Assembly (NCBI RefSeq): GCF_900078705.1
Contig: NZ_FKIF01000002.1
Coordinates: 496,001 to 560,000, forward strand
Source of the DNA: Bordetella ansorpii
Lineage (GTDB): Bacteria; Pseudomonadota; Gammaproteobacteria; Burkholderiales; Burkholderiaceae_B
Reading direction: 5' to 3'
Length of the DNA stretch: 64,000 nt
Positions 1-31,949 of the stretch are shown here, piece by piece; within the stretch, counting starts at the first letter, position 1, and every line of letters begins with the position of its first letter. The translations under genes were made by a program, and so were the position numbers. Below the pieces are notes generated by a model. It made no database searches, had not been told where the DNA came from, and saw only the letters and a list, made by a program, of their open reading frames with translations.

Positions 1-329
1 CAGAGCGGGCGGATCATCGAAATTTGTTTCAAATAGTCGGGTGTGCTTCTGCCGGTAACGAGGCGGCAAAATACAAGAACCGGCGGGTTTATTGCGACCG
101 GGCAGAATGCCCCCGCGCGGCGTCCTGGTCCTCGGCCGCCTCCGCCGAGCCAGTGGCATGCTCGTCATTCCGGGCATGCGGGGGCCGTTTCGTGGCGGGC
201 AGGGCGCACCGTTTTTCGGTGGCATGTCACGATTCGGTCAGATTGGCTTTCTAGACTGGCTGCCTTTGCACGCTCGGGGGTGGTGCGCGATGCGCGGCGC
301 CTTCTGACCGGCACCCGTCTTTCGACCCA
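1..329. other. Intergenic region upstream of the surface-signalling genes
   Basis: No convincing gene. The small open frames here overlap each other on one strand and match no family I recognise. The stretch contains the Pho-box-like promoter at 224-257, listed separately. The gene to the left lies outside the window. Confidence 0.6.
224..257 (+). promoter_or_regulatory. Candidate Pho box with -10 element for the STN/sigma/anti-sigma operon
   Basis: Two 7-base half sites, ATGTCAC (224-230) and CGGTCAG (235-241), are separated by 4 bases, so their GTCA cores repeat every 11 bases as in the PhoB consensus CTGTCAT-N4-CTGTCAT; 10 of 14 consensus positions match. Ten bases further on is TAGACT (252-257), a fair -10, with no good -35. 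This is the layout of PhoB-activated promoters, where the Pho box takes the place of the -35. Seen: half sites and spacing. Inferred: PhoB binding. Confidence 0.45.
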
Positions 330-1022
330 ATGATTTCCTCATGGTACCGACACCCGCCGCGCGTCGTGCTTGGGATGATGGCGGCCGTCATGTCGTGCGC
401 CATGCTTTGCGTCGTCCTGGCTCCCGATGCTTGCGCGCAGATGCAGGTCCCAGCCGCGCAGGACTTCGACATACCCCGTCAACCGCTTCAGGCGGCCCTG
501 GAGCAGTACGGCATTCGCACCGGACAGGCGTTGCTTTACGAGACCCGCATCCTGGCCGGGCGCTTTTCTTCGCCCGTGGTCGGCCGGTATACCCCGGACG
601 CCGCCTTGCACCGACTGATCGAAGGTACCGGTGTGCGTGCCGACTATGTCAGCGCGCACGCCTTCGTGCTCTCGCTCGATGCCGCGGCGCCGCGCGCGGC
701 CGCCCGGGTTCCGGCCGGCAAGGCGCGCTACTACGGCCTGCTGCAAGCAGGGATAGAGCAGGCACTGTGCGCAGACCCCGCCACCGCGCCCGGCGCCTAT
801 CGCGTGGGCATGCGGTTCTGGCTGGATGGCGCCGGCGTGATGCAGCGGTTCGAAATGGCAGGAACGACCGGCGATGTCGTTCTCGACGAGAAGATCGTGG
901 TCCGGCTGCGAGGGTTCAGCGTGGGCGAGCCGCCGCCATCCGGCGTGCGCCAGCCCCTGACGGTGTTGATCGAGCCTGGGGACCGCGCCACCACGGGCGA
1001 TTGCGCGGCCCGGCTGAACTAA
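330..1022 (+). CDS. VreA-like periplasmic signalling protein (STN domain plus TonB-like domain)
   Basis: 230 aa. A signal peptide of about 36 residues with a hydrophobic core (12-32) ends at ACA-Q. An STN (secretin/TonB short N-terminal) domain spans about residues 46-116; in cell-surface signalling this domain normally sits on a TonB-dependent receptor and touches the FecR-type anti-sigma factor. There is no beta-barrel. Instead residues ~131-215 (RYYGLLQAGIEQAL..., YRVGMRFWLDGAG, VRLRGFSVGEPPP) resemble a TonB C-terminal domain. The same architecture is known in Pseudomonas VreA of the PUMA3 system. The gene lies 13 bases upstream of an ECF sigma gene and is probably cotranscribed with it from the Pho-box-like promoter. 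Start at ATG 330 gives a good signal peptide but has only a weak ribosome site. Function by architecture and context. Confidence 0.7.
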   Translation: MISSWYRHPPRVVLGMMAAVMSCAMLCVVLAPDACAQMQVPAAQDFDIPRQPLQAALEQYGIRTGQALLYETRILAGRFSSPVVGRYTPDAALHRLIEGTGVRADYVSAHAFVLSLDAAAPRAAARVPAGKARYYGLLQAGIEQALCADPATAPGAYRVGMRFWLDGAGVMQRFEMAGTTGDVVLDEKIVVRLRGFSVGEPPPSGVRQPLTVLIEPGDRATTGDCAARLN

Positions 1023-1035
1023 CCAGGCGAAGACG

Positions 1036-1548
1036 ATGAGCACCTATACGCTGGCGGAACTGCGGCATTTCCTGACCGACCGCTACGACGCGCTGAAGCG
1101 CCGCCTGGCCTACCAGTTGGGTAGCGAAGAGCGTGCCGGCGATGCGCTGCATGACACCTGGGTGAGACTGAACGGTCGCGATGACATGCCGCCCGTCGAC
1201 AACCCGCAGGCCTTCGTGCTGCGCATGGCCGTCAACTCGGCGGTCGACCGCTGGCGCAAGGACACCCGGCTGGTCAGTGCGTCGGAAATCGACGATCTGC
1301 TGCAGCTGGACGATGCCGAACTCGGACCGCGCCACAGCCTCGAAGCCCAGTTCGAACTGCAGCAATTGCTGCGCGTCCTGGACGAGCTGCCGGAGCGGCG
1401 GCGGCAGATATTCCTTGCCATACGCATCGATGGCGTGACGCGGAAAGAACTGTCCAAGCAATACGGCATTTCGCAACGCGCCATCGAGGCCGAATTGCGC
1501 CGCGCGCACGACTATTGCGCGCAACGGCTGGACAGGGGAGGGGTGTGA
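1036..1548 (+). CDS. FecI/VreI-type ECF RNA polymerase sigma factor
   Basis: 170 aa, the usual size for the family. Residues ~8-75 form sigma region 2 (DALHDTWVRL, then NPQAFVLRMAVNSAVDRWRK, as in FecI-group proteins). Residues ~112-165 form region 4 with a helix-turn-helix (DGVTRKELSKQYGISQRAIE). It should direct core RNA polymerase to its target promoter when released by the anti-sigma factor. It follows the STN gene by 13 bases and its stop TGA (1546-1548) shares the A with the start ATG of the FecR-type gene, so the two are translationally coupled. The likely target is the large adhesin gene downstream. Confidence 0.88.
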   Translation: MSTYTLAELRHFLTDRYDALKRRLAYQLGSEERAGDALHDTWVRLNGRDDMPPVDNPQAFVLRMAVNSAVDRWRKDTRLVSASEIDDLLQLDDAELGPRHSLEAQFELQQLLRVLDELPERRRQIFLAIRIDGVTRKELSKQYGISQRAIEAELRRAHDYCAQRLDRGGV

Positions 1549-2492
1549 TGCAAGATCCCATCCTCGACAAGCAGGCGCGCGACTGGCTGCGCCACCTGAC
1601 GTCCGGGCAGGCCACCGGCCGGGACGTGAAGCAGTTCGAACAGTGGCGCGACGCCAGCGCCGAGCACCGGGCGGCCTGGAACAGCGCGCGCCGGACCTGG
1701 CGCGACCTGGGCGACCTGGGACGCGCCTGGCGCGAGCGCCGGCCCGCCGAGCAGCCGCGCCGTTCGCGGCGCAGGCTGATTCTGGGCGCGGGGCTGGCGG
1801 CGGGCGGCGCCGCGGCCACCGCGCTGGCGATGTTCCCGCCGATGGCGCTCTGGCCGTCGCTGCGCGAATGGGGCGCGGACTATCGCACGGCGGTCGGCGA
1901 GCAGCGCCGGCTCGCGCTGGCCGGCGACGTGCATGTCGTCATGAACACGCGCACCAGCCTGTCGGCCTGGCTCGAGGCCGGGCAGCAGCGCATCGAGCTG
2001 CTGGAAGGCGAGGCCGCCTTCGAGTGCAAGGATGGGGACCGGTCGCTGGAGATCCTGGCGGGCGATGGCAGCATCCGGGCCGGCCTGGCCAGCCTGGACG
2101 TGCGGCGGCTGGGCGGCAGCGTCTGGGTGACCTGCCTGGACGGCCAGGCCGAGGTGCTTCACGGTGGGCGGCGGCTCACGCTGGGACCCCGGCAGCAAGT
2201 GCGCTACAACGGGCAAGACATGCTGCCCATCGTCGCCGTCGCGAACCCCTCGGCGGCCGCCTCCTGGCGCAATGGCGTCGTGGTGATCGACAACCTGCCG
2301 TTGCCCGACGCCATCGACGAGATCAACCGCTATCGACCAGGCCGGGTGGTCCTGGTCAACGACAGGCTGGCCGGACGCCGCCTGAGCGGGCGATTTCCCA
2401 TCGGCGACCTCGACGTGGCGCTGGTCCAGATCGAACGCCTGTTGGGCGCGACCCTGCGGTACGGACCTGCCGGATTGGTGCTGATTGCCTGA
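1548..2492 (+). CDS. FecR/VreR-type anti-sigma factor
   Basis: 314 aa. Start chosen at ATG 1548, which overlaps the sigma factor stop (TGATG); an upstream in-frame start would run back into the sigma gene. The N-terminal cytoplasmic part (~1-70, DWLRHLTSGQATGRDVKQFE, a DUF4880-like sigma-binding domain) is followed by an arginine cluster (RRSRRR, 71-76) and one membrane segment (~77-98). The periplasmic FecR domain follows (DYRTAVGEQRRLALAGDVHV), with a C-terminal STN-like fold (DNLPLPDAIDEINRYRPGRV...). It should hold the sigma factor at the inner membrane until the STN protein signals. Confidence 0.88.
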   Translation: MQDPILDKQARDWLRHLTSGQATGRDVKQFEQWRDASAEHRAAWNSARRTWRDLGDLGRAWRERRPAEQPRRSRRRLILGAGLAAGGAAATALAMFPPMALWPSLREWGADYRTAVGEQRRLALAGDVHVVMNTRTSLSAWLEAGQQRIELLEGEAAFECKDGDRSLEILAGDGSIRAGLASLDVRRLGGSVWVTCLDGQAEVLHGGRRLTLGPRQQVRYNGQDMLPIVAVANPSAAASWRNGVVVIDNLPLPDAIDEINRYRPGRVVLVNDRLAGRRLSGRFPIGDLDVALVQIERLLGATLRYGPAGLVLIA

Positions 2493-2512
2493 GCGATGCG
2501 TTGCGCCACGCG

Positions 2513-2541
2513 GGAAATGTATCAAGCCATAAAAATTTAAT
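2513..2541 (+). promoter_or_regulatory. Candidate FecI-type promoter of the large adhesin gene
   Basis: GGAAAT (2513-2518) equals the -35 of the E. coli fecA promoter recognised by FecI. Seventeen bases later begins TTTAAT (2536-2541), within an A/T-rich run (2529-2541) that stands out in this GC-rich DNA. It lies about 100 bases before the adhesin start. The -10 does not match the fecA -10, so this is a weak call resting on the -35 and position. Confidence 0.3.
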
Positions 2542-2643
2542 CAGGGACGAGCTTCCGGATGCCGGGCGCCCGCGCGTCTATGCGGGGTAACGGTCTTGCT
2601 TCGCGGCGGGGCCGATGGCCCAAGTTTTTCCGGAACCCCTTCC

Positions 2644-5600
2644 ATGCCCGTTCGTCCTGTGTCCCGCGCCGCCGTCCCGGTCTTCTCCTTGCAGCCCACG
2701 GCGCTGCATGCCGCCCTGGCGGCGTTGCTGCTGGCCGGCGGCCTGAGTTCTCCCATCGAGGCCCATGCCGCCGGCGCCTGGTGGGCGGTGCAGGGGGCCG
2801 GCCGGGAAAACGTCTCCGGCGCCGCGGGCCTCAATGCCGCGCGGGCCCGGCAGCGGGCCCAGGCCGCGTCCACGCAGTCGGCGAATCAGCGGCTGGCCGC
2901 CGAGCAGGCCGGGAGAATGGTCGCCAACGCGGGCCGCACGGCGCAGGTGATCGCCGCCGAGATGGCGCGCCAGCAGCGCGAGCGCGACAAGATGCTGGCC
3001 GGCGCCTCGTCCATTCCGGATGGCGTGACGCCCGGGGGCCTGCAGCAGGACCTGGCCGCGGGATGGGACGGCGCAGAGCAGACATTGCGCGTGCTGCAAG
3101 CGCAGGGCCGCACCGAAGTCGCCATCAGGCAGGACAAGGCCAAGGCCATCCTGAACTGGAAGACCTTCAACGTCGGCAGAAACACCACGGTGCATTTCGA
3201 CCAGAGCGCGGGCACGGATGCCAGGACGGGGCGCAATGACTGGGCGGTGCTCAACCGCATCACCGATCCCAGCGGCAGACCCAGCGAGATCGCGGGCCAG
3301 ATCAAGGCCGAAGGCAGTGTGTATCTCATCAACCGGAACGGCATCGTCTTCACCGGAACCAGCCAGATCAACACCCGCAGCCTGGTGGCCTCCAGCCTGA
3401 AGCTGACGGACGAGCAGTTCAGGGCGGGCCTGAATGTACGGCTCGGGGCGAACACGGGCGATCCCGGCTACTGGAGCGGCCTGGAGATCGCGGTCGGCAT
3501 TCCCACCTTCGGCGAAAACCCCACGAACTTGCCGGCCGACTCGTCCGTCCAGTTCGCCGACATGGGGCCTGCGTTCGATCCGGGCGCGGCGCCGGGCGAT
3601 GTCAAGGTGCAGGCCGGCGCGCAGATCAAGGCGCAGGGCGGCCATGTGCTGCTGTTCGCGCCCAAGGTGAGCAATGCCGGCAGCATCCGCACGCCGGACG
3701 GCCAGACCTTGATGGCCGCGGGCGAGAACGTCTGGCTGGAAGCCAAGGCGAACGATCCCACCGTGCGCGGCTTCGATGCCGTGGTCTCGTCGGTGCGGCC
3801 CTGGGCCTTCCCGGCCAGGTTCCTGGTCGAGCCGCGCACGGACCCCGCCTTCCAGCAGTATCTGATCGGACGAATCGTGTCCGACATCATGCCGCGGATG
3901 GAGCAGCGCGCGGCAGAGGTCGGTTACAGCGTGCTCAACACCGGCATCGTGCAGGCCGATCATGGCGACATCACGCTGGTATCGCGCGAGATCAACCAGA
4001 ACGGCGTGCTGCAGGCCAGCACGGCGCTGAACAACCGGGCGGGCTCCATCCGCCTGCGTGCGTGGGGCCAGGGCGTCTACAACATCGACAACAACCTCGC
4101 CGCCTCTGCCTCGCATCTGGTGGCGTGGTCGGGGGGCGCGCTGACCCTGGGCCCGGACAGCATCACCCAGGTCGTCAACGATTGGCAGGACGCCACGCAG
4201 ATCGAAAGCAGCGCGCTGGCGAACCGCTATCAGCCCGGCCGCATCGAGCTCTACGGCAAATCCATCGACGTGCAGGCCCGCGCCCAGGTCACCGCCGCGG
4301 CGGGCGAGATCGACATCCAGGCCCAGGCCAATCCCGCGGCCCTGCTGCGCCACCTTCAATTCGGCGACGGCAGCCGTGTTCTCGTCGGAGAGAACGCCAC
4401 CATCAGCACCGCCGGCCTGCTGGAGATGCCGGTGGACATGGCCTCCAACTTCGTCGAGGCCGAACTGCGCATCAATGAATTGCGCGACTCTCATCAGCAG
4501 TCGGGCACCTGGCTTTACGGCAGAAAAGTCATCGTGGACCGGCGCAAGTCGGGCACCCTCGATGGCCTGATGGGGGGCGTGGAATGGGTGACCGACGGCT
4601 CGGGCAAGGTGGTCAAGGGCGCCTGGATCGGCACGCCGCTGGCGGACGTGACGGGTTGGGTCGGCAATGGCCTGGTCACCCTGTCCGAATTGGCGGCCCG
4701 GGGCGGCAGCATCACGATCCAGTCCAACGGCTCGATGATCACGCGGCCGGGCTCCATTCTGGACGTCTCCGGCGGTTCGGTGCGATACAGCGACGGCTGG
4801 AATACCGAGACCCTGCTGCGCGGCGCGGACGGGCGCCTGTACCCGATGTCGTCCGCTCCGGCGGACATGATCTACGTCGGTATCGCGGGCCAGTATCAGG
4901 CGATGCACGCGCGCTGGGGCGTCACGCGCACTTTCCTGAATCCCGTGTTGCCCGCACGGCGCTGGGAGCGTGGCTACGCCGAAGGGCGAGAGGCGGGCTC
5001 GATCGAAATCCTGGCCGGCAGCGCCTTCATTCTGGAAGGCGAGATGAAAGGCTCGGTGCAGCCGGGCGACCGCGCGCAGGAACTGGCCGACCTGCCCCAG
5101 GCCGGCCGGTTGCTGATCGGCTCCAACCGGGCGCAGGAAGGTCTGTGGACCCTGGGCAAGGTCATCATCGGCAATACGCCTACGCTGTTGCCCGAAGACT
5201 TCACCATCGACAGCCCGCTGGGCAAGGATGCCTTCCTGACCGAGGAGGAAGGCCAGTCCGCGGGCACCGCCGCGGGCGCGGGCCGGACCACCTGGCTGTC
5301 GGCCGCTTCGCTCAGCCATTCCGGCATGGGCTCCATCGAATTGAACCTGACCACCGGTTTCAACCTGGAAGAAGGCGCCGTGGTGAACCTGGCGCCGGGC
5401 GCCCGCTTCGTGGCCCAGGTCTATGACGGCTCGGGCAACCCCGGCGATTTCGACATCCAGGGCAGCCTCATCGCACCGGGCGGCAGCATCACCCTGAGCG
5501 CGGGCGGGGTCGCGGACAGCGTGCTGCGGCTGGGCGCGAACAGCGTGCTGAGCACGGCGGGCCAGTGGATAAACGACACCGCCAGCGGCGGCGCCACGCT

Positions 5601-8600
5601 GGGCCGCGCCATCCACGGCGGCGGCATCGTGCTGGGCACGCCCGTGAAAGAAGGCCTGGGCACGGTGTACGGCAAGGTGGACGTGGCGGCGGGCGCGGTG
5701 GTGGACGTATCCGGCGGCGGCTGGCTGCCCGACGCCGGCCCGGACGGCCGTGGCGGCAAGATGCGGGCCGGCAACGGCGGTAGCGCCAGCCTGATGGCGT
5801 TCGACAGCGCCGCGCTCGATACGCTGGACCTGCGAGGCTGGTCGGGGGGCAACGCCTCCCGGCTCAGCATCATGGCCACCAGCGATGTGCAACTGGGCGG
5901 CGCGGCGCCCGGGGGGGAAGCGGTCCCCGGCGCCACGGAAACCCTGCATCTGCCCGAGACCCTGTTCAGCGAGCGCGGCTTCGGCACGATCAGCGTCCGC
6001 TCGCTCGGCGGGGATGTCGTGGTCGCGCAGGGGGCGCAAGTCCGCGTCCTGCCCTCGGTGTGGGACATGTCGGCGCCGCTGGCGTGGCGGGCGCTGCCCA
6101 GCGGCCAATCCCTGGGCAGCGTGCTGGCCCCCGTGGCGCTCGATGCCTTGCCCGGAGACGTCCGCGCCGCGCGCGCGCCCGGCGGCGTGTCGCTGGCCAC
6201 CGGCGTCTCCGGTGGAAGCATCCGCATCGAGGCGGGCTCCCTCGTGCAGGTGGAACCCGGGGGCTCCGTGTCCCTGGATGCGGGCGGATCCGGGCAAGCC
6301 ACCATCGCGGGCCGCATCGTCGCGCCGGCGGGCACGGTGGACATCCGGGCCATCACCTCGTTGACGCTGGCCGAGGGGGCGGAACTGCTGCTGCCCGGCG
6401 TGGCGCAAGTTTTCTACGATCCGGTGACGCAGTTGCAGCGGGGCAAGGTTCTCGCGGGCGGCACGGTCTCGCTGACGGCGGGTTCGCTCGACGCGCGGGC
6501 AGGCTCGTCGATCGACGTATCCGGCGCCAGCGGCACAGTGGAATACTGGGCTCGCGAAGCGGGCGTGCTTGGCCCCAACCGGCGCGCGGCGCAGCAACTG
6601 GGCAGCGATGGCGGCGAGGTGGCGGTCACGGTGTCGGCGGGCGGCGCCTTCAACACCACGCTGCGCGCCCACGGCGGCGATGCGCTGGCGGCGGGCGGCT
6701 CCCTGTCCATCGTGGACACCAGCTCGGCCGGCAGCCCGTCCGGGGACCTGGTGACGCCTGACATCGGGTCGTTCCTTTTTTACCGGACACCCGCCGGAAT
6801 GACCGGTACGCACACGTTCGACGGCGTACAGTACACCCGCGTCATCGGCACGAGCGCCAACCTCGACGTGTTCGACGAGTACGTCGGCGACGTCAGGATG
6901 GCCAGCGCAATGCGCACGGCGATCAACGGCACATTGCCGGCGCTGGTTTCCAGCAGCAACGGGATGGTCATCGACGCGGGCGTGGCGGCGGCCAGCGGGT
7001 CCGGCCAGGGCATGGCGGCGTGGGAATACAACACGTCCATCGATCCGCGGGTGGTCGAGCTGCTCAACAAGTATTTCTGGAGCGGCACCGGGACGGCCTT
7101 GAGCCACAAGATCAACATCGGTCGCATCGCCACGTCGGACAGCACCCTGCACGTATCGGCGGCGTCGCTGCGGAACACGGGCATTTCCGCGCTGAGCCTG
7201 CAATCCACGCAGGTGGGGGTGCAGGTTTCCAGCGGCGTGGATCTGAATGTCGAGGGCCGCTTGCGCATCACCGCGCCGGTCATCAAGAGCGACGGCAAGG
7301 GCGGTACGGCACGCCTGCACGCCCACGCGCTGCAGCTGAGGCCCCTGGCAGGCACGGTCGGCGCCGCCGCGGTCAATGCGGGAGAACTGATCCTGTCGGC
7401 CAGCCAGGTCCTCGACATCGCGGGCAGCAGCGTGAAGGGCGATGCCTCGCAATCGGTCAACGTGAATCTGCGGGGATTCGAGCGCACCGTGCTGGAGACC
7501 GGCGACCTGCGCTTCGTGGCGGGGTTGTACAGCGAAGGGGGCGCTGACTACGACGACGCCAATCTGCGGGCCACGCTGGACGTGGATGGGGCATTGGAAA
7601 TCCGGGCCGCGCAGGTCTATCCGGGCACGGCGGTCACGGCGCGGATCGTGTCGGGCCAGTCCATCACGGTGCGCGGCAACGGCAACGCCGAGGCGCCGCT
7701 GTCGGCCGGCGGCAGCCTGACGCTGAGCGCGCCCGTGATCGAGCAGACGGGCGTGCTGCGGGCGCCCTTCGGCCAGATCGTGCTGGACGCCAGCGACCGC
7801 CTGGTGCTGGGCGATGCCAGCCTGACCTCGGTCTCCGGCGCGGGCCTGGGCGTGCTCTACGGCACGCTGCGCAATGCCGAATACTGGCTGGATCCGGCCA
7901 ACCCGCAGGGCCGCAGCCGAACCCATCCCAGCGACGCCAATGTCCTGGACGAGAACCGCTATCTGTCGTCGCTGCCCGAGAAGCGCGTGTCCCTGCAGGC
8001 GCCGGACATCAGCATGGCCGCGGGGGCGGTGGTGGATATCGCGGGCGGCGGCGAGCTGTACGCCTGGGAGCACGTGCCGGGCTCGGGCGGCTCGCACGAC
8101 GCGCTGACGCTGCCGGGCATGTACGCGGTGCTGCCGCGCTATAGCGGGCTGTCGCCCGAGGTGTCCGCTGGCGGGGACGCCGCGGGCCGCAAGGTATGGC
8201 TGGCCGGCGGTGGCCTGGAGGCGGGCTGGTACACGCTGCTGCCGGCGCGTTATGCCATGCTGCCTGGCGCCTTTGCGGTGCAGGCCACGGGACAGGCCAT
8301 GCCGGCGGGCGCCGCGTCGTCAGCAGACGTGGCCCGCCTGCGCGAAGGCTCGGTGCTCGTGGCCGGCCGGATGCACGACTCCATCAGCGGCGCGCAGGAT
8401 GCCACCTCGTCGGTCTGGCGCGTGTCCCCGGGCGATCTGGTGCGCAAGGTCAGCGAATTCAACGAGGCCCAGGGCAACGCCTTCTTCGCCTCGGACGCCT
8501 TCAAGCTGACGCAGTACCGCCTGACGGGACAGGACGTCGTCACCCCGCGGTTGCCGCGCGACGGCGGCGCGGTGGTCTTCAAGGCCGCCAGCTCCCTGGT

Positions 8601-11600
8601 TCTGGATGGCCAGTTGCGCGCGCAGCCTGGCGAGGGCGGCCGTGGCAGCCTGGTGGACATCTCCGCCGACAGGATCGCCATCGTGGGCGCCGGCCAGGAC
8701 GGCAGCGATCTGCGTGCCGCCGGCTACCTGGTCGTGGACGCGGGCAGCCTGACGCGCTTCGGCGCGGGCAGCCTGCTGGTGGGCGGCACGCGCACGGGCG
8801 ACGCGCAGGGCCTGCAAGTGGACGTTGCCGCCAGCGACGTCGTGCTGCGCAACTCGGCGGACTCCGCGTTGAGCGGTCCCGAAGTGATCCTGGCCGCCAC
8901 GAATCTGGTGTCGATCGAATCGGGCAGCGTCCTGCGCGCGGACGGCCAGGCTTCCGGCGAGGACACGGCACTGGTGCTCAAGCCGCAGGCGGCGGCCCAG
9001 TGGAACGACAACAACACGCCGAACGACACCAACGACGATTACATCGTCACGCCTTCCAAGGACTGGGGCGCCTTGGTGCGCGTGAGCAGCGGCACGGCGG
9101 TGCGGGCGTTGCGCCAGAACGTGGACACCACGACGGGCGGGCAGGTGCGCATCGGCGCGGGCGCCCGGCTGGACGGTGGCGCGGCATTGCTGATCGATGC
9201 CACCAACACGACAGAGATGGCGGCGGGCGCCCAGCTCTCCGGCACGGCCCTGTCGGTGGCCGCGGGCCGCATCGGCATTGGCGGGGGCTCCGCCGGCCTG
9301 GTGCTGGACGCCGACGCGCTGGCCCAGTTGTCGCGGACGCAGGCGTTGACGCTGCACAGCTACAGCAGCCTGGATTTTTATCGCGCTCTGGACATGCGCA
9401 ATCTGGCTCAGGTCGTGCTCGATGCCGCGGCGCTGCACGGTGTCGGCGCCGGCGCCGTGCAGGTGCAGGCCACCCGCCTGACGCTGCAGAACACCGGGGC
9501 GCAGGCCGCTGGCGCCGGCGTGGGCAGCGGCCGCCTGGAACTGACGGCCGACGAGTTGGTGCTGGGCGCCGGCAACAAGTCCATATCCGGGTTCGGCCAC
9601 GTGCTGCTGGCGGGGCGTCAGCGCATCGTGGGCGAAGGCAGCGGCGGCCTGGATGCCGGCGCCGCGCTGCTGACGCTGGGCGCGCCGGTGCTGCAGGGCG
9701 GCGCCGGGGCCGACCAGACGCTGCGCACGCAAGGCCAACTGGTGCTGCAGCGCACGGCGGACATGGACGCCACCGCCATCACGGAGCTGGGCGCGCGCAG
9801 CCTGGGCGCTCGCCTGAGTCTCTCCGGCCAGGGCGTCACCGTCGCCTTGCCGGTGCTGGCACTGGGCGGCAGCGTCTCGGTGGATGCCGGCACGGGCGAC
9901 CTGGCGGTCACGGAGCAAGGCAGCCTGCGCGTGGGCGGCCTTGAACAAGTGTTCTTCGACGTGCCTCAATACGTGGATGCCGGCCAGATCAGCCTGGCCA
10001 CCCGTGGCGGCTCGATCGACCTGGCGCCGGGAAGCCTGCTGGACCTGTCGGCCCATCGGAATGGCGGCGACGCCGGCAACCTGACGGTCGACGCCTCGGC
10101 CGGCGGGCGAGTGAACTTCGGCGGCACGTTGCAGGCGCGTTCGGGCGCGGCCGCGGGCAGCGGGAGCGGCGGCCGCTTCGCGCTGGCCATCGATCAGCTG
10201 GCCGATTTCGGCACCTTGGCGCAGATGCTCAACCAGACGGGCTTCAGCCAGTCGCGGCAATTCCGCATCCGCGAAGGGGACCTGGTCATCTCGGGCGCCA
10301 CGCAGGTGGCGGACTTCGAAGTCATCACCGATCGCGGCTCGATTACCGTCGACGGCACGGCGCATGTCGACGCCAGCGCCACCTACGGCGGCAGCATCCG
10401 CCTGGTGGGCGGGGGCGGCCTGGCCATGCGGGGCGGCGCGATGCTGGCTGCCCGCGCCACCGACACCATCGACGGCGTGGGCGGAGGCCGCATCACCCTG
10501 GAGGCCATCAACGGCAGCCTGCAACTGGCTGGCGGCACGCTGGACCTCAGCGGCGGTGAGGGCGGCAGGCTGCGGCTGCGGGCGCAGCGCAATGCGGGCA
10601 ACGACGGCGTGAACGTCACGGCGTTGGGGGCCTCCGTACAGGGCGCCCGTTTCGCCGTGCTGGAAGGTGTGCGCAGCTACGCCAGCACGGATGGCACCGT
10701 GGAATCCGTCAAGGCCCTGGCCATCGACCAGGCCAATGCCTTTGCGGGCAACCCCGGCATCCTGCCCGGCCTGGGGGGCAATGCGGGCGCCTACACCCTG
10801 GCGGCGGGTATCGACATCACCAGCGCCGGCGACCTGACCCTGGGCAGCGATTGGAACCTGAATGGCGACTTCGGCGCGGCGCACCGGGAAGGCACGCTGA
10901 CGCTGCGCGCGGCGGGCAACCTCAACCTCGATGGCCACCTGAGCGATGGCTTCGATGCGGCGGGGCGCGAGGGCCGGCTGACCGGCGCCGCGTCGTGGAA
11001 CCTGCGCCTGGTGGCGGGCGCGGACCTGGCCTCGGTCGATGCGCTGGCCGTGCAGTCGCCAGGCGCGCTGGCGGCCGATGCCGGCACGCTGCGCGTGGGC
11101 ACGGCCGATGTCACGCCGGGTAGTGGCGGCGCGGGCAAGCTGGTGCGCACCGGCACGGGCGACCTGACCGTACGCGCCGGGCGCGACGTGATACTGGCGC
11201 ACAAGGAATCCGTGCTGTACACGGCGGGGCGGGCCGAAGCGGACCCGACGCTGGGCGGGGGCTTCAGCACCGCAAGCAGCGGCGCCCAGTACGGCGCCGA
11301 CGGCGGCCACGTCGACATCGCGGCGCAAGGCAGCGTGCGGGCGCCCATCGTCCAGGGGTCGCGATCGGATCAGATCCTGACCGAATGGCTGTTCCGCCAG
11401 GGGCGCTATGGCGGCGACGCTTCCAGCCCCACCGGTTACTACGATGCGTACCAGATCGGCAATCCGTGGGACATTCCACCGAGCATGTCCGCCCAGGGCC
11501 AGCAACCGAGCTGGTGGGTGAACTACGCGAGTTTCGAGCAGGGGCTGGGCGCGCTCGGCGGCGGCAACGTGCGGCTTGCCGCGGGCGGCGATCTGGTCAA

Positions 11601-14337
11601 CCTGGTCGTGGCCTTGCCCAGCACCATGCGCGTGACGGGCGGGCGCGCCGCCAGCGATGCGGCGGCCGCCATCGTCAGCCGCAATGGGGGGCAACTGCGT
11701 GTCACGGCGGGGGGCACCCTGAAGGCGGGCCAATACTACGTGGGCCGCGGCGCGGGATATATCGAGGCCGGGGCAAGCGGCGCCGGCTATACGCTGACCG
11801 GCACGTCGACCACATGGCCCTTCTCCGCGTATCGCTACGACATCGCGCCCGTGCTGGCGCTGTCCGACGCCACGCTCACGTTCAAGACGCTGGGCGATCT
11901 GGTCGTGCAGACCGTGATCGATCCCATGGAAATACGCCGTGCCTATGTCGATCAGGCCGACCGGGACGTCTCGGGCTCGGCCAGCCACGGGCTCTTCATG
12001 AGCAGCTACACCGAACGCAGCGCGCTGAAACTGGTGTCCACCGGTGGCAATGTGCGGCTTGAGAACCAGTCGGAATTCGTGGCGGGCAACACCACGGGCA
12101 ATACCACCCAGCTGGTCAGCGGCGTGACGGACACCAAGCTTCAGTCGGACAGGCTGGGCCTGTACCCGGCCAAGGTCAGCGTATCGGCCCTGGGCGGGAG
12201 CATCGAGGTGGGCGGGTTGCTGGCGATGGCGCCGGCGGCCACCAGCGACCTGTCCCTGCTGGCCGCCCAGGACCTGCGCTTCCTGCGCGGCAACGGTCCG
12301 CTGAGTACCGGCGCCATCGTCATGTCTCAGGCGACGCTGGACAGATGGCCGTCGGTACTCACGTCCTGGAACGGGCTCACGACGATGCTCAGCGGCGGGT
12401 CGGCGTTCGGGACCCCGCTGAAGGGCCCCTATCTGTCGAATACGTTCCTGACGAATGTGCTGAACGGAACGGTGTTCGACAATCCCGATACCTTGCCCAT
12501 GCAGGTGCATGACTTCGCGCCCAGCCGCCTGTATGCGGCCAGCGGTTCCATCACCGACCTGAATCTGATCGCGTCGGAGTCGGTACGCGTGCAGGCCGGC
12601 ACCGACATCCGCAACGTCGAATTGAGCGGTCGCAACCTGCGCGCCACCGACACCACTTTGCTGGCGGCGGGCAACGACATCCTGGCGATCGAGAACAGGC
12701 CCCTGTCGCACCCCTACACGCCGTATGGCGGCAGCGCGCAGACCTATTACTACGACCGGGGCAGCCGCGCCGCGCTGCAAGGGCCGGGGGAACTGCTGCT
12801 GCTGGCCGGGCGCGACATCCAGGGCAACAACCTGTCGCTGTATTCGAACGCCAACCGCTATTGGGACTACGTCGGGGCAATGCCGCGCGTCGAGGAGCCG
12901 AACGCCATCAAGGCGCTGCCCGAGACCGGCGCGAACATCACCTTGATGGCCGGCATGAATGCCGCGCCCAGTTACGCGACCTTCGAACAGGCCTATCTGG
13001 ACCCCGCCAACGTGGCCGCCATGCCCGCCTACCTGAAGACCACGCTGGCCGATGGAACGGTGGCGCCGCTGTACCTGACCGATGGGGTGGAAGTCCGCGG
13101 CGATCTGAACAAGCTCGGCCGCCGTGGCCTGGTCTCCTTCATGGAAGGCATGCTGGGGGCCGAAAAGGTCGCCAGCCTGACCGGTTCCGAGGACGGCAAG
13201 CTCACCGAGCAGCAGGCATGGGAGCACTATCAACGATTGCCCGCGCTGGTTCGCCAGCAGTTCCTGCGCCAGGTGTTCCTCTACGAATTGCGGCAGGGCG
13301 GCCGCGACCAGAACGACGTGGATGCGCAGAACGCGCCCGGCAACGGCGGCTACCGCCGGGGGTACGCGGCCATCGACACGCTGTTCCGCGGCGCGGCGGC
13401 CGAGGGCCAGCCCGTGCGCTACGCGCAGGACCTGCCGGACGATTGGCGCGGCAGTTGGACGGGGTCCGGCAATGTCGCCCTGACGCGGCTGGTGGCGCGC
13501 ACTCATCAAGGGGGCGACATAAACGTCTTCACCCCTGGGGGCGGCCTGCAGGCGGCGGCGCTGGGCGCGGCGGTGCCTGACGGCTACGGTCTGGTCACCT
13601 TGGCCTCGCCCGGGCAGATCAATGTGTACGCGGACCGGGACATCATCGTGAACCGGTCGCGCATCCTGTCCTTTGTGTCGCAGGCCGAGCCGCTGGGCAG
13701 CGATCAGGTGCTGTGGTCCACGCGGGGGGACATCGACGCGGGCCGGGGCGCCAAGACGGTGCGCGTCCCGCAGGCGCCGACCGTCTCCGCCGACCTGGAC
13801 GGCAACATCACCGTGGAGGAAAAGCGCGACATGAGCGGCGCCGGCATCGGCACCGTGGGCGAGGGCGACGTGGACCTGGTCGCCCCGGGGGGCACCGTGA
13901 ACGCCGGCGACGCGGGCATCCGCGTGGCGGGCAACTTCAACGTGGCCGCCTTGCGCGTGCTCAACGCGGCCAACATCCAGGTCGAGGGCGAGTCCAAGGG
14001 CGTGCCGGTCGCCGTGTCGGTCAATACCGGCGCGCTGACCAGCGCCAGCGCGGCGGCCAGCAGCGCGGCCACGGCGGCGCAGGACTCGGTGTCGCGCGCT
14101 CGCGACAGGACGCGGCAGGCGCTTCCGTCCATCGTGACCGTGCAGGTCCTGGGCTTCGGCATGGACGGCTCGGGCGCTGCCGCCGCCCAGCCGTCCGCCG
14201 GCCAGGCGCCGGCGCGGCGGGGCGACCCGTCTGGGCGGCCCGTCAGCTACCGCCCCGAGAGCGCCATCCAGGTGCTGGGCGATGGGGAATTGCCGGCCAG
14301 CCAGCGGGCCCGCCTGCCGGAGGCCCGCGACCGATAG
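2644..14337 (+). CDS. Giant filamentous-haemagglutinin-family exoprotein (TpsA/PdtA-like, DUF3739 type)
   Basis: 3897 aa. Start set at ATG 2644, which gives a signal peptide (~1-43, ending AHA-A); a TTG at 2596 in the same frame is the alternative. After the signal peptide comes an unusual Ala/Gln/Arg-rich, helix-prone stretch (~58-125). The secretion (TPS/haemagglutination activity) domain follows at ~160-290, with NWKTFNVG at 171-178 and NRNGI at 230-234 in place of the usual NPNG. The body is a long run of beta-helix repeats rich in Gly, Ala, Ser and Asp (phrases such as GGSIxL, AGAxVDVSGG). An Asn/Asp cluster (2121-2133) looks able to bind calcium. The C-terminal ~3690-3850 (GEGDVDLVAPGG, VNAGDAGIRVAGNFN) matches the DUF3739 family. 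It is likely exported by Sec and then by a TpsB pore; no tpsB is in the window. The upstream sigma/anti-sigma pair is its probable regulator. Confidence 0.88.
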   Translation: MPVRPVSRAAVPVFSLQPTALHAALAALLLAGGLSSPIEAHAAGAWWAVQGAGRENVSGAAGLNAARARQRAQAASTQSANQRLAAEQAGRMVANAGRTAQVIAAEMARQQRERDKMLAGASSIPDGVTPGGLQQDLAAGWDGAEQTLRVLQAQGRTEVAIRQDKAKAILNWKTFNVGRNTTVHFDQSAGTDARTGRNDWAVLNRITDPSGRPSEIAGQIKAEGSVYLINRNGIVFTGTSQINTRSLVASSLKLTDEQFRAGLNVRLGANTGDPGYWSGLEIAVGIPTFGENPTNLPADSSVQFADMGPAFDPGAAPGDVKVQAGAQIKAQGGHVLLFAPKVSNAGSIRTPDGQTLMAAGENVWLEAKANDPTVRGFDAVVSSVRPWAFPARFLVEPRTDPAFQQYLIGRIVSDIMPRMEQRAAEVGYSVLNTGIVQADHGDITLVSREINQNGVLQASTALNNRAGSIRLRAWGQGVYNIDNNLAASASHLVAWSGGALTLGPDSITQVVNDWQDATQIESSALANRYQPGRIELYGKSIDVQARAQVTAAAGEIDIQAQANPAALLRHLQFGDGSRVLVGENATISTAGLLEMPVDMASNFVEAELRINELRDSHQQSGTWLYGRKVIVDRRKSGTLDGLMGGVEWVTDGSGKVVKGAWIGTPLADVTGWVGNGLVTLSELAARGGSITIQSNGSMITRPGSILDVSGGSVRYSDGWNTETLLRGADGRLYPMSSAPADMIYVGIAGQYQAMHARWGVTRTFLNPVLPARRWERGYAEGREAGSIEILAGSAFILEGEMKGSVQPGDRAQELADLPQAGRLLIGSNRAQEGLWTLGKVIIGNTPTLLPEDFTIDSPLGKDAFLTEEEGQSAGTAAGAGRTTWLSAASLSHSGMGSIELNLTTGFNLEEGAVVNLAPGARFVAQVYDGSGNPGDFDIQGSLIAPGGSITLSAGGVADSVLRLGANSVLSTAGQWINDTASGGATLGRAIHGGGIVLGTPVKEGLGTVYGKVDVAAGAVVDVSGGGWLPDAGPDGRGGKMRAGNGGSASLMAFDSAALDTLDLRGWSGGNASRLSIMATSDVQLGGAAPGGEAVPGATETLHLPETLFSERGFGTISVRSLGGDVVVAQGAQVRVLPSVWDMSAPLAWRALPSGQSLGSVLAPVALDALPGDVRAARAPGGVSLATGVSGGSIRIEAGSLVQVEPGGSVSLDAGGSGQATIAGRIVAPAGTVDIRAITSLTLAEGAELLLPGVAQVFYDPVTQLQRGKVLAGGTVSLTAGSLDARAGSSIDVSGASGTVEYWAREAGVLGPNRRAAQQLGSDGGEVAVTVSAGGAFNTTLRAHGGDALAAGGSLSIVDTSSAGSPSGDLVTPDIGSFLFYRTPAGMTGTHTFDGVQYTRVIGTSANLDVFDEYVGDVRMASAMRTAINGTLPALVSSSNGMVIDAGVAAASGSGQGMAAWEYNTSIDPRVVELLNKYFWSGTGTALSHKINIGRIATSDSTLHVSAASLRNTGISALSLQSTQVGVQVSSGVDLNVEGRLRITAPVIKSDGKGGTARLHAHALQLRPLAGTVGAAAVNAGELILSASQVLDIAGSSVKGDASQSVNVNLRGFERTVLETGDLRFVAGLYSEGGADYDDANLRATLDVDGALEIRAAQVYPGTAVTARIVSGQSITVRGNGNAEAPLSAGGSLTLSAPVIEQTGVLRAPFGQIVLDASDRLVLGDASLTSVSGAGLGVLYGTLRNAEYWLDPANPQGRSRTHPSDANVLDENRYLSSLPEKRVSLQAPDISMAAGAVVDIAGGGELYAWEHVPGSGGSHDALTLPGMYAVLPRYSGLSPEVSAGGDAAGRKVWLAGGGLEAGWYTLLPARYAMLPGAFAVQATGQAMPAGAASSADVARLREGSVLVAGRMHDSISGAQDATSSVWRVSPGDLVRKVSEFNEAQGNAFFASDAFKLTQYRLTGQDVVTPRLPRDGGAVVFKAASSLVLDGQLRAQPGEGGRGSLVDISADRIAIVGAGQDGSDLRAAGYLVVDAGSLTRFGAGSLLVGGTRTGDAQGLQVDVAASDVVLRNSADSALSGPEVILAATNLVSIESGSVLRADGQASGEDTALVLKPQAAAQWNDNNTPNDTNDDYIVTPSKDWGALVRVSSGTAVRALRQNVDTTTGGQVRIGAGARLDGGAALLIDATNTTEMAAGAQLSGTALSVAAGRIGIGGGSAGLVLDADALAQLSRTQALTLHSYSSLDFYRALDMRNLAQVVLDAAALHGVGAGAVQVQATRLTLQNTGAQAAGAGVGSGRLELTADELVLGAGNKSISGFGHVLLAGRQRIVGEGSGGLDAGAALLTLGAPVLQGGAGADQTLRTQGQLVLQRTADMDATAITELGARSLGARLSLSGQGVTVALPVLALGGSVSVDAGTGDLAVTEQGSLRVGGLEQVFFDVPQYVDAGQISLATRGGSIDLAPGSLLDLSAHRNGGDAGNLTVDASAGGRVNFGGTLQARSGAAAGSGSGGRFALAIDQLADFGTLAQMLNQTGFSQSRQFRIREGDLVISGATQVADFEVITDRGSITVDGTAHVDASATYGGSIRLVGGGGLAMRGGAMLAARATDTIDGVGGGRITLEAINGSLQLAGGTLDLSGGEGGRLRLRAQRNAGNDGVNVTALGASVQGARFAVLEGVRSYASTDGTVESVKALAIDQANAFAGNPGILPGLGGNAGAYTLAAGIDITSAGDLTLGSDWNLNGDFGAAHREGTLTLRAAGNLNLDGHLSDGFDAAGREGRLTGAASWNLRLVAGADLASVDALAVQSPGALAADAGTLRVGTADVTPGSGGAGKLVRTGTGDLTVRAGRDVILAHKESVLYTAGRAEADPTLGGGFSTASSGAQYGADGGHVDIAAQGSVRAPIVQGSRSDQILTEWLFRQGRYGGDASSPTGYYDAYQIGNPWDIPPSMSAQGQQPSWWVNYASFEQGLGALGGGNVRLAAGGDLVNLVVALPSTMRVTGGRAASDAAAAIVSRNGGQLRVTAGGTLKAGQYYVGRGAGYIEAGASGAGYTLTGTSTTWPFSAYRYDIAPVLALSDATLTFKTLGDLVVQTVIDPMEIRRAYVDQADRDVSGSASHGLFMSSYTERSALKLVSTGGNVRLENQSEFVAGNTTGNTTQLVSGVTDTKLQSDRLGLYPAKVSVSALGGSIEVGGLLAMAPAATSDLSLLAAQDLRFLRGNGPLSTGAIVMSQATLDRWPSVLTSWNGLTTMLSGGSAFGTPLKGPYLSNTFLTNVLNGTVFDNPDTLPMQVHDFAPSRLYAASGSITDLNLIASESVRVQAGTDIRNVELSGRNLRATDTTLLAAGNDILAIENRPLSHPYTPYGGSAQTYYYDRGSRAALQGPGELLLLAGRDIQGNNLSLYSNANRYWDYVGAMPRVEEPNAIKALPETGANITLMAGMNAAPSYATFEQAYLDPANVAAMPAYLKTTLADGTVAPLYLTDGVEVRGDLNKLGRRGLVSFMEGMLGAEKVASLTGSEDGKLTEQQAWEHYQRLPALVRQQFLRQVFLYELRQGGRDQNDVDAQNAPGNGGYRRGYAAIDTLFRGAAAEGQPVRYAQDLPDDWRGSWTGSGNVALTRLVARTHQGGDINVFTPGGGLQAAALGAAVPDGYGLVTLASPGQINVYADRDIIVNRSRILSFVSQAEPLGSDQVLWSTRGDIDAGRGAKTVRVPQAPTVSADLDGNITVEEKRDMSGAGIGTVGEGDVDLVAPGGTVNAGDAGIRVAGNFNVAALRVLNAANIQVEGESKGVPVAVSVNTGALTSASAAASSAATAAQDSVSRARDRTRQALPSIVTVQVLGFGMDGSGAAAAQPSAGQAPARRGDPSGRPVSYRPESAIQVLGDGELPASQRARLPEARDR

Positions 14338-14362
14338 GCGTGCCCGGAGGGGAAAAGGGGCC

Positions 14363-14380
14363 GTGTCGAAAAATCGACAC
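14363..14380. terminator. Short inverted repeat after the adhesin gene, possible weak terminator
   Basis: Arms GTGTCGA and TCGACAC with a loop of 4 A, 25 bases after the adhesin stop. No T-run follows, so it may be a processing or rho-assisted site, or an operator of the rplC promoter 27 bases on, rather than a true intrinsic terminator. Confidence 0.3.
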
Positions 14381-14406
14381 GAAATCAGCGCGTTAGTGGT
14401 ATCGCC

Positions 14407-14436
14407 TTGCCATCTGGCTTTTTCCCATGCTAGCAT
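14407..14436 (+). promoter_or_regulatory. Candidate sigma-70 promoter for the rplC operon
   Basis: TTGCCA (14407-14412) and TAGCAT (14431-14436) are separated by 18 bases. Transcription from here would give a leader of roughly 195 bases before rplC. The call rests on the match, on position and on the absence of rpsJ upstream. Confidence 0.45.
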
Positions 14437-14531
14437 TCGAGACTTGCCATTTTTGGCATAGCCGCTCATGGTCCGTCCATACGGCCCTTTCCGTCAGGCC
14501 CGCACACCTCAGCGGGCACGACGGATCGGCT

Positions 14532-14557
14532 GGCGGGATCCGGTCTTCGGATCCGCC
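14532..14557 (+). promoter_or_regulatory. Leader hairpin upstream of rplC
   Basis: Ten-base-pair stem with one bulged G: arms GGCGG-G-ATCCG and CGGATCCGCC around a GTCTT loop. No T-run follows, so it is not an intrinsic terminator. A second, smaller hairpin (CCCGAC 14606-14611 with GTCGGG 14620-14625) ends just before the rplC ribosome-binding GGAG. In E. coli the S10 operon leader mediates L4 autoregulation; whether this leader does so here is inference. Confidence 0.45.
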
Positions 14558-14638
14558 GGAATCATCACTTTGTAGGGCAAAAGCCTTTACCTTTGCCTGA
14601 TTAGCCCCGACCAATCGCAGTCGGGAATGGAGAAAACG

Positions 14639-15328
14639 ATGTCGAATCCGACACCCACGCCGGCCGCCCATCGGCTGGGCCTGGTGGGCCGCAAGGTCGG
14701 CATGACCCGCATTTTCACGGAAGATGGTGAATCCATCCCCGTGACCGTGCTGGACGTGTCCAACAACCGCGTGGCTCAGGTCAAGTCGCCTGAAGTCGAC
14801 GGCTATGCAGCCGTTCAGCTGGCCTATGGCACTCGCCGCGCTTCGCGCGTCGCGAAGGCCCAGACCGGCCACTACGCAAAAGCCGGCATCGAAGCCGGCA
14901 GCATCCTCAAAGAGTTCCGCCTGGATCCCACCCGCGCCGCCGAGTTCACGGCCGGCGCCGTGGTTGCCGTGGAATCCGTGTTCGAAGCCGGCCAACAGGT
15001 CGACGTGACGGGCACCACCATCGGTAAGGGCTTCGCCGGTACCATCAAGCGCCACCACTTCGGTTCGCAGCGCGCGTCGCACGGTAACTCCCGTTCGCAC
15101 CGCGTTCCCGGCTCGATCGGTCAAGCGCAGGATCCCGGTCGCATTTTCCCCGGCAAGCGCATGGCCGGCCACCTGGGTGACGTTACCCGCACCGTCCAGA
15201 ACCTGGACGTGGTGCGCGTCGACGCCGAGCGCGGCCTGCTGCTGGTCAAGGGCGCCGTCCCCGGTTCCGCCGGCGGCGATGTCATTGTGCGTCCGGCCAT
15301 CAAGGCGCCGGCCAAGAAGGGGGCGTAA
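14639..15328 (+). CDS. rplC: 50S ribosomal protein L3
   Basis: 229 aa. Binds 23S rRNA early in 50S assembly. The core [20 protein letters not shown] and the later loop with [14 protein letters not shown] are classic L3. Start at ATG 14639 because GGAG (14629-14632) is well spaced for it; an in-frame ATG at 14627 overlaps that ribosome site. First gene of the S10-type block here, with rpsJ missing in front. Confidence 0.97.
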
Positions 15329-19407: not shown

Positions 19408-19458
19408 TGCAGGCGTGACGGCGGGGCGGTCACGCCCCGCGGTTTCCCCGCGTACGTC

Positions 19459-19490
19459 AAAAGCCAGAGGCGCCAAGCTTCTGGCTTTTT
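19459..19490 (+). terminator. Intrinsic terminator 1 after rpsQ
   Basis: Perfect 10-base arms, AAAAGCCAGA (19459-19468) and TCTGGCTTTT (19480-19489), around an 11-base loop, with the T-run completing the tract at 19490. Fifty-two bases upstream is a GC-rich segment (19413-19440) that can fold two mutually exclusive ways: GCGTGAC with GTCACGC, or GCGGGGCG with CGCCCCGC. Confidence 0.88.
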
Positions 19491-19498
19491 CATTTGCC

Positions 19499-19540
19499 GA
19501 ATCCCTGTCCCGCCACGCGCGGGATGGGGATTCTTCTTTT
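19499..19540 (+). terminator. Intrinsic terminator 2 after rpsQ
   Basis: Fifteen-base arms (19499-19513 and 19519-19533; GAATCCCTGTCCCGC on the left) pair throughout as RNA, with two G-U wobbles, around a CACGC loop. TTCTTTT follows (19534-19540). Together with terminator 1 it should stop nearly all S10-block transcription before the effector genes. Confidence 0.85.
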
Positions 19541-19669
19541 CGGGGCCATGTTCCCCGCCAGCCGGACAGGGGGGTGGCCTGGTCGGCGGCCAACAGGCCC
19601 GGGAACCCGCCCAGGGTTTCGGTTACTCACAGGAAAGCGGCAACCCGTCCGCTGGAATGGAGAGCCCCG

Positions 19670-20110
19670 ATGAATTCGATTTCCGCGATCGCGCAGGCCA
19701 TCGCCGAAGGCGCGGCGGCCCTGGCCCCCGGCCAGGAAGTCCACATGCCCGTGGATGAACACCGCATGGTCCGGCTGTTGCGCCGCACCGTGCCGTCCAC
19801 GCTCGGACTGTCCGTGGCCACGCTGGCCGTGGGCCGCACCGAGGAACAGCAGGCTGCCGCCCGCGAGGCGTTGCTGCGCGTGGGCGCCGATAGCCGCTTC
19901 ACCCTGGCATTTGCCGGCGGACTGGACGACGAAGGCCGGGATTGCCTCCTGGCGGAACTGGCCGAGCCGGTCGACGCCGCCACGGTCGAGCTCCTGCTCG
20001 ATCGGATGCTCGAACGCTGCGCGGCGCCCGCGCAGCGTTTCGACACGCCCGCGTCGGACGACGTCTCCCTGTCGCCGATCGACATGGCCGCTCGCTGGTT
20101 GCGAGTCTGA
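19670..20110 (+). CDS. Unrecognised 146-aa protein, first gene of the effector unit
   Basis: I do not recognise this family. 146 aa, no signal peptide, no membrane segment. The middle (PSTLGLSVATLAVGRTEEQQ..., SRFTLAFAGGLDDEGRDCLL) suggests an alternating alpha/beta fold and the sequence is acidic overall. Start at ATG 19670 with GGAG ten bases or so upstream. It ends 25 bases before the chaperone-like gene on the same strand, so the three genes to 22387 probably form one unit. A second chaperone or an accessory of the effector is a guess from size, acidity and position. Confidence 0.6.
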   Translation: MNSISAIAQAIAEGAAALAPGQEVHMPVDEHRMVRLLRRTVPSTLGLSVATLAVGRTEEQQAAAREALLRVGADSRFTLAFAGGLDDEGRDCLLAELAEPVDAATVELLLDRMLERCAAPAQRFDTPASDDVSLSPIDMAARWLRV

Positions 20111-20135
20111 GCACCGCCTTCCAAAGGAAAGACAG

Positions 20136-20603
20136 ATGCCGCAATTCGACGATCCCGATTTCCAGCGCCTGGCCGCCAGCCTGGGCGACGTGGCTCCCAC
20201 GTCCGCACGCAGCTTCGACCTGGTGTTCGACGACAACCTCTGCGTGACCGTATCCAGGCACCCCAGGCGAGCGGATGTCTGCGTCGACGTCTGGTGCCAT
20301 GACGTCTCGGCGTACGTCGGCGCGCCGCGCCGCGCCCTGGTCGATACGCTGTTGCTGCTCAACCGCACCGCGCAGGCCGGACAGCCTTTCCGCGTGGGTC
20401 TGGACAGCCGCGATTTCATCGTCGTGCACGCCAGCCAGGCCATGGACCGCCTCGAGGGCGGGGCCTTCGGCGCCTGGTTGACCTGGATGCTCGATCAGGG
20501 CCGGCGCATCCGCGAACTGGTTCGCACCATTGGCTTCGAGAACGGTCGCCTGACCTATGAACTGGCCGCCGCGCCGGCGGCCGCGCCCCAAGGAGACGAG
20601 TAA
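20136..20603 (+). CDS. Probable class I type III secretion chaperone (CesT/SpcU-like)
   Basis: 155 aa, with no signal peptide. The size, the order helix (1-15), strands (SFDLVFDDNLCVTVSR, ADVCVDVWCHDVSAY), helix (RRALVDTLLLLNRTAQ), strands (FRVGLDSRDFIVVHAS) and C-terminal helix, and the net acidity fit the CesT/SpcU chaperone group. These bind an unfolded N-terminal segment of one cognate effector. Its stop TAA (20601-20603) overlaps the patatin start by one base (TAATG), so the two are translationally coupled, as expected for a chaperone and its effector. In Pseudomonas the spcU chaperone gene lies downstream of exoU; here the order is reversed. Family call by fold pattern and context, not by a signature motif. 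Confidence 0.6.
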   Translation: MPQFDDPDFQRLAASLGDVAPTSARSFDLVFDDNLCVTVSRHPRRADVCVDVWCHDVSAYVGAPRRALVDTLLLLNRTAQAGQPFRVGLDSRDFIVVHASQAMDRLEGGAFGAWLTWMLDQGRRIRELVRTIGFENGRLTYELAAAPAAAPQGDE

Positions 20604-22387: not shown

Positions 22388-22466
22388 TACTGCGCCGATC
22401 GTTCCGCGAGGGCCGCCCGCCGGCGCAGGGGCGTGGTTTCCAGGCGGAACGGTCGGCGGTCTGTGC

Positions 22467-24584: not shown

Positions 24585-24604
24585 GGTTGCTGCGGAATCG
24601 AGGC

Positions 24605-25600: not shown

Positions 25601-25621
25601 ACGGTTCTCCAGATGCGGTAT

Positions 25622-26782: not shown

Positions 26783-26799
26783 GGCGGTCTCCTGCGCCG

Positions 26800-27783: not shown

Positions 27784-27850
27784 GGAGTTCTCCTTTGGGG
27801 ATAGGGGCCCGCGGCTTCTATGGCCTGGGTCCCCGTTGAGGGCCGGGGCC

Positions 27851-31933: not shown

Positions 31934-31949
31934 TTGCCGCAAATTGTGC

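Follow-up and report, generated by a model that had tools for sequence, protein, structure and literature searches.

The closest described counterpart of the locus analysed here is the PUMA3 system of Pseudomonas aeruginosa which, in the available parts of the papers on it, works with PdtA/PdtB and ExbB2-ExbD2-TonB4 (PMC2729926, PMC4971064, PMC7035377). The vreA and pdtA promoters are described there as carrying pho boxes and needing them, and pdtA as being under the joint action of PhoB and VreI (PMC4971064). According to the available text of Llamas et al. 2009, PUMA3 clusters followed by tpsA occur four times each in two bacteria, and the repeated clusters known from that work are those of Rhodopseudomonas palustris and Janthinobacterium (PMC2729926). 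Bordetella ansorpii itself is reported, in the accessible portion of PMC5045587, to be without BvgAS and fhaB and to possess different haemagglutinins, which are more like those found in other Beta- and Gammaproteobacteria, e.g. Pseudomonas.

The window (the whole stretch of 64,000 nucleotides that was analysed, on contig C2 of the 6.2-Mb B. ansorpii genome G000) carries a cassette of vreA-like, vreI-like, vreR-like and tpsA genes, the three regulator genes being co-directional on the + strand (Table 1). The initial annotation had proposed a PUMA3-like circuit in which an STN plus TonB-like protein without a barrel, an ECF sigma factor and a FecR-type anti-sigma factor precede a giant TpsA. 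These assignments were borne out by a TolA/TonB-like C-terminal domain in the first protein, by matches to Sigma70_r2/r4_2, FecR and DUF4880 in the two regulators, and by a TPS domain and DUF3739 within 3,897 residues of exoprotein. The STN match in the VreA-like protein is weak (21.7 bits against a Pfam cut-off of 28.4); residues 17-119 match the NCBIfam FecA model at 2.5e-10, far under the model's own cut-off, and a putative signal peptide was judged by eye. For vreR the open reading frame list gives a TTG start at 1515, while ATG 1548 yields 314 aa and overlaps the sigma factor stop codon. The PupR signalling domain was matched by a profile of ten VreR paralogues (6ovk_R, E 5.9e-36). The start of tpsA is more likely ATG 2644 than TTG 2596, which would give 3,913 aa; the TPS domain occupies residues 168-281 (PF05860, 75.3 bits against a cut-off of 33.5) and DUF3739 residues 3701-3805. 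The sister genome, B. ansorpii SMC-8986T (G011, L034), carries the same gene run with a VreR 90% identical to that of the window. Mis-called or chance reading frames were ruled out by the family or fold support for each gene and by this run in the sister genome.

Table 1. Coordinates of features in the window and at other loci of the genomes compared.
Feature	Position	Strand	Description
S10 operon split by vgrG-PAAR group and vreAIR-tpsA cassette	window 1-14639; L009:10827-17824		between rpsJ and rplC
Extra stretch, approximate ends	62..14422	+	missing in G004, whose rpsJ-vgrG-rplC region otherwise matches
Pho box 5' of vreA	224..241	+	ATGTCAC-GATT-CGGTCAG; score 10.35; motif, predicted PhoB site
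vreA-like gene	330..1022	+	230 aa; STN domain, TolA/TonB-like C-terminal domain, no barrel
vreI-like ECF sigma factor, FecI type	1036..1548	+	170 aa; Sigma70_r2 and r4_2 above cut-off
vreR-like anti-sigma factor	1548..2492	+	DUF4880 and FecR; FecR/PupR type
Candidate sigma-dependent tpsA promoter	2528..2581	+	boxes picked by eye, except A-rich element found de novo
A-rich element of candidate promoter	2528	+	de novo two-box search
TTCCGG box of candidate promoter	2553-2558	+	by eye
CGTCTAT box of candidate promoter	2575-2581	+	by eye
tpsA	2644..14337	+	exoprotein with TPS domain and C-terminal DUF3739; 3,897 aa from ATG 2644
Hub locus L031	C1:394-410 kb		tpsB, DUF2341/LamG, exbB, exbD, tonB, Porin_5, unknown, YbjN-like, PpiC
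Extra ECF sigma genes	L012:1775-2389; L013:2637-3158; L014:16726-17331; L016:16954-17574		after tpsA
Extra ECF sigma gene	L024:7103-7921		5' of vreA
Extra ECF sigma gene	L049:5498-6019		after tpsA

Likeness to PUMA3 was judged by domain architecture and gene order against the published descriptions of the P. aeruginosa system. The window cassette shares with it the barrel-less VreA (STN plus TolA/TonB-like domain), the vreAIR order, a tpsA gene downstream and a pho box 5' of vreA, and on this architecture the proposed PUMA3-like circuit stands. It differs in that the trio lies directly before tpsA, that G000 has ten trios, and that type II secretion, phosphatase and tpsB genes are absent alongside the window copy. 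With FecA/FecI/FecR and PupB/PupI/PupR the cassette has in common the STN domain, a FecI-type sigma factor and an anti-sigma factor with PupR-like domains, but plug and barrel are missing and the neighbour encodes an exoprotein, not an iron receptor. Like FHA (fhaB/fhaC) of classical Bordetella, TpsA is a giant TPS exoprotein, but an FhaC-type gene is absent alongside the window tpsA.

A search with VreR over contigs of GTDB species gave at least 544 confirmed relatives, of which the best 80 were examined; these lean to close matches, and five of them are loci of G011 or of Bordetella genomosp. 13 (G004). In 79 of these best 80 of at least 544 loci a vreA stands ahead of the sigma/anti-sigma pair, and 63 have a TPS domain no more than 3 kb after vreR; of the 17 others, seven reach a contig end within 2.3 kb and ten do not. 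Hosts among the best 80 of at least 544 include Bradyrhizobium, Bordetella, Achromobacter and Luteimonas, and so span Alpha-, Beta- and Gammaproteobacteria. Because the gene order recurs across these hosts, that of the window is an ordinary representative of a widely distributed family of cassettes. The comparison of synteny that the initial annotation had suggested thus returned the trio followed by a TPS domain in most of the loci examined, and the compaction that it had taken as special to this locus is neither special nor, given the clusters reported in 2009 (PMC2729926, available text), new. The absence of a TonB-dependent receptor holds, but as a trait of PUMA3 itself rather than as a change specific to this locus. 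The same recurrence makes it very improbable that the trio is an ordinary iron-type FecI/FecR remnant with a truncated receptor, standing by chance beside tpsA and controlling something else. Its sigma and anti-sigma factors do match FecI/FecR-type families, and STN-bearing full-size receptors are common in these genomes, but a coincidence would have to extend to 63 of the best 80 loci (of at least 544) and to nine of the 11 DUF3739 genes of G000; moreover, a TolA/TonB-like domain replaces plug and barrel in VreA, and pho boxes stand 5' of vreA.

G000 holds 14 genes with a TPS domain, 11 of them with DUF3739, and 18 FecR-domain genes. There are ten complete vreA-vreI-vreR trios, vreA being present at all ten VreR-type loci, and nine of them (L011-L019, L017 being the window) sit directly before a DUF3739 tpsA; nine of the 11 DUF3739 tpsA genes are thus immediately preceded by a trio. 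The tenth trio (L024, on contig C6) is surrounded by type II secretion genes and adjoins transposase-like DUF772 genes and phosphate-binding-like genes, a setting that it shares with PUMA3 of P. aeruginosa. One of the two trio-less DUF3739 genes (L020) adjoins this C6 type II secretion/trio cluster, the other (L021) genes resembling, by eye, gspE, gspF and a phosphate-binding protein; the three TPS genes without DUF3739 each have a TpsB gene alongside. Within the genus, DUF3739 was counted 13 times in G011, 11 in G000, twice in G004 and once in G005, with zero in 11 of 15 genomes. Unlike the clusters of R. palustris and Janthinobacterium, those of G000 comprise nine trio-tpsA cassettes, with no trio seen in the locus that carries the matching tpsB, and a second ECF sigma gene directly follows tpsA in four of the nine; at the C6 trio such a gene stands 5' of vreA. 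The four-gene cassette is of an already known kind; it is the large repertoire around the window copy that is unusual. In the accessible literature a repertoire of many trios sharing one TpsB was not found besides the 2009 paper, and no paper was found that treats DUF3739 by name.

Seven of the ten trios have a counterpart in G011 at 75-100% VreR identity, and that of L024 has one at 85% in G004; for L012 and L018 no counterpart above 60% VreR identity was found among the trios compared. Median whole-protein identity among the ten paralogues is 33% for VreA, 40% for VreI and 41% for VreR, and by domain 42% for the VreA STN, 35% for the VreA C-terminal domain and 31% for the cytoplasmic part of VreR. 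There is no clear sign that VreA is the fastest-evolving specificity part, since the cytoplasmic part of VreR diverges more. Elsewhere in G000 a vreA-like stretch (L114:9542-11059, C6:252,560) stands alone, no gene for a sigma factor, anti-sigma factor or TpsA being called next to it; it may be a relic of a lost cassette, because a similar vreA in G011 (C14, L127) belongs to a complete one. At another G011 locus (L128, C28:135 kb) vreA apparently falls into two reading frames, with vreI, vreR and the start of tpsA still present.

Pho boxes were scored on the gene strand over the 330 bp before vreA, at p<0.05, with a model of two CTGTCAT-like repeats 11 bp apart, which we take to be the consensus. 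The structure of the pho box has been described for P. aeruginosa (PMC4971064, available text). The window box, which begins at 224, the first coordinate given in the initial annotation, came out at p 0.005-0.007 when its 330 bp were shuffled for comparison, and a pho box also stands 5' of vreA in the sister genome (L115). Of the non-redundant trios of G000, G011, G004, G005 and G017, 14 of 18 passed the threshold, as did 50 of 76 trios from named loci (drawn from the best 80 of at least 544); among control genes of G000 the count was seven of 143 (Mann-Whitney p 1e-8 for trios against controls, 2e-4 when G000 is taken by itself, and 3e-26 for the trios from named loci). Within G000 alone six of the ten trios passed and the other four were not significant. 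An earlier count of 20/25 and 54/81, against 15/171 controls, was partly redundant, with both members of orthologous pairs counted and some controls entered more than once; its controls also took in at least one gene from a trio.

The vreR-tpsA gap of the window, unlike the corresponding P. aeruginosa promoter, has no significant pho box (p 0.39), and a pho box at the window tpsA promoter is therefore not supported; eight of 23 such gaps have one at p<0.05, in two cases on the opposite strand. When 82 vreR-tpsA gaps, which include near-identical relatives and are not independent, were searched de novo for a two-box motif, a common A-rich element (approximately CAYAAAAA) emerged with a log-likelihood of 317 against 113-125 in six shuffled sets, a margin that is only indicative, as 25 restarts were used for the real gaps and ten per shuffled set. 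In several gaps this element is, by eye, the centre of a pho-like box, TGTCAY-AAAA-NTTCAY. The candidate -10 elements look alike by eye (CGT type) in many gaps and all ten sigma factors belong to one family, which raises the question of whether the switches are private at all: the ten sigma factors could cross-activate, and the repertoire be expressed together. We regard this as possible, if short of an even chance, because the VreI paralogues are only 28-55% identical to one another and the candidate -35 elements appear by eye to be of at least two types.

No ShlB-family (TpsB) gene was found on contig C2, which carries the window. G000 has five such genes, one of them of the clade that co-occurs with DUF3739; among the other four, the copy on C7 has no adjoining TPS gene. 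The gene of the matching clade lies on contig C1, unlinked to the window, in an ExbBD/TonB/porin cluster of PUMA3 type (the hub). The genes pstC, pstA and pstB are found about 5 kb upstream of the hub, with five called genes between, and the region ahead of the hub tpsB scores only marginally for a pho box (p 0.05). With PA0692-PA0699, as described in the available text of PMC2729926 and PMC7035377, the hub shares its nameable genes in the same order (tpsB, exbB, exbD, tonB, porin, PpiC) when the DUF2341/LamG gene, an extra relative to P. aeruginosa, is left out. Among 200 genomes of the order, DUF3739 occurs in 23, the hub TpsB clade in 24 and both in 22 (Fisher p 6e-26), the clade being delimited at E <= 1e-85, a threshold set after seeing the score gap to 5e-71. 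Each of the 22 DUF3739 genomes besides G000 has a single copy; of the 21 with the TpsB as well, 18 carry both genes on a single contig, no more than about 24 kb apart, and the remaining three have them on separate contigs of fragmented assemblies. Since the single copies are linked elsewhere, one DUF3739 gene to one TpsB is usual and eleven to one is the exception. Three of the 200 genomes have a full-length VreA (E <= 1e-25). The trio cassettes of G000 probably share the hub TpsB as their exit. Sequence similarity links the C-terminal domain of VreA to the TonB of the hub (E 1.4e-9) and to a solitary TonB-like protein next to the hub (E 6e-10), which suggests that this domain may touch the same outer-membrane partner as the hub TonB. 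A small protein near the hub cluster (L031:9694-10155) consists of hardly more than a TonB C-terminal domain.

Taken together, the window most probably holds a PUMA3-family cassette in which one private sigma/anti-sigma switch is coupled to one giant two-partner-secretion protein, licensed by PhoB and using a shared exit. Gene order, folds, the pho box motif, hub content and co-occurrence are seen directly, and from them we infer the regulatory and export steps. Under phosphate starvation PhoB would bind at 224-241, as the motif predicts, and the vreA-vreI-vreR operon would be transcribed. VreR in the inner membrane would hold VreI, its PupR-like periplasmic domain docking the STN of VreA, by homology to the solved PupR complex. 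A periplasmic or surface cue would relieve VreR, and VreI would then transcribe tpsA from the 2492-2644 gap, the sigma factor thus presumably driving the adjoining adhesin. TpsA would leave through the single TpsB of the matching clade on C1, as genome content and co-occurrence indicate. Because the arrangement recurs in nine trio-tpsA cassettes, they may give the cell a set of adhesins under one phosphate licence, each with a switch of its own; the sequence evidence suggests that the nine cassettes have one export machine in common and are themselves turned on by phosphate scarcity. The cassettes suggest how bacteria of the B. ansorpii type, reported without BvgAS and FHA, may control surface proteins.

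The least secure element of this scheme is VreA. The protein was found dispensable for VreI activation in P. aeruginosa (PMC7035377, available text), and because of this its docking to VreR may not be needed; yet the gene is kept almost everywhere among the loci examined. Phosphate alone could then be the signal, with PhoB expressing the operon, basal VreI leaking past VreR, VreA a bystander and no private cue. In the accessible accounts VreA is dispensable in vitro and for virulence in zebrafish embryos (PMC7035377), and binding of VreI to the pdtA promoter needs PhoB (PMC4971064). We nevertheless think this reading unlikely, as vreA is kept before the sigma and anti-sigma genes in 79 of the best 80 loci (of at least 544) and in ten of ten in G000, and VreR retains its PupR-like domain. 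Within the favoured scheme of cue-relieved private switches, a more speculative idea, to which we give still less weight, is that VreA, with its C-terminal domain similar to the TonB of the exit cluster, senses the condition of the outer-membrane exit or of the cargo passing through it, the nine cassettes having spread as units into new sites, one of them the S10 operon, and all using a single TonB-linked exit; if so, each adhesin would report its own export. Ten diverged trios and nine matched exoproteins make a system for testing the privacy of the switches and what VreA reads, a test that single-copy PUMA3 of P. aeruginosa, where VreA is seemingly dispensable, cannot offer.

The cassette stands within the S10 ribosomal protein operon. 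The alignment with G004 breaks off at L017:2061 (window 61) and picks up again at L017:16423 (window 14423), with about 0.13-0.15 kb of the G004 site unaligned to G000, and the extra 14.4-kb stretch contains the pho box, the trio and tpsA. Among the 14 genus genomes in which both genes were found, 11 have 0.31-0.51 kb between rpsJ and rplC; the distance is 5.1 kb in G004, which has the vgrG-PAAR group without the cassette, and 20.2-20.3 kb in G000 and G011, which have both. The same gene order in G011 rules out an assembly artefact. No transposase was called within the extra stretch, and a search for terminal repeats gave only short chance matches. The simplest order is that the vgrG group arrived first and the cassette second; alternatively, the cassette may have been lost from G004. 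Judging from this one site, the cassette may travel whole, control region included.

The ribosomal cluster is split a second time at window 19408-32291, where about 12.9 kb of unrelated genes lie between rpsQ-like and rplN-like genes, as they do in G011 (L116). Inside this second split (window 19670-22387), two small genes without a Pfam match are followed by a gene for a 594-aa patatin-like phospholipase, a set-up that by eye resembles a secreted effector with its chaperone. Two further genes without a Pfam match, between vgrG and PAAR (L009:12890-14165), are possibly a T6SS adaptor and its cargo.
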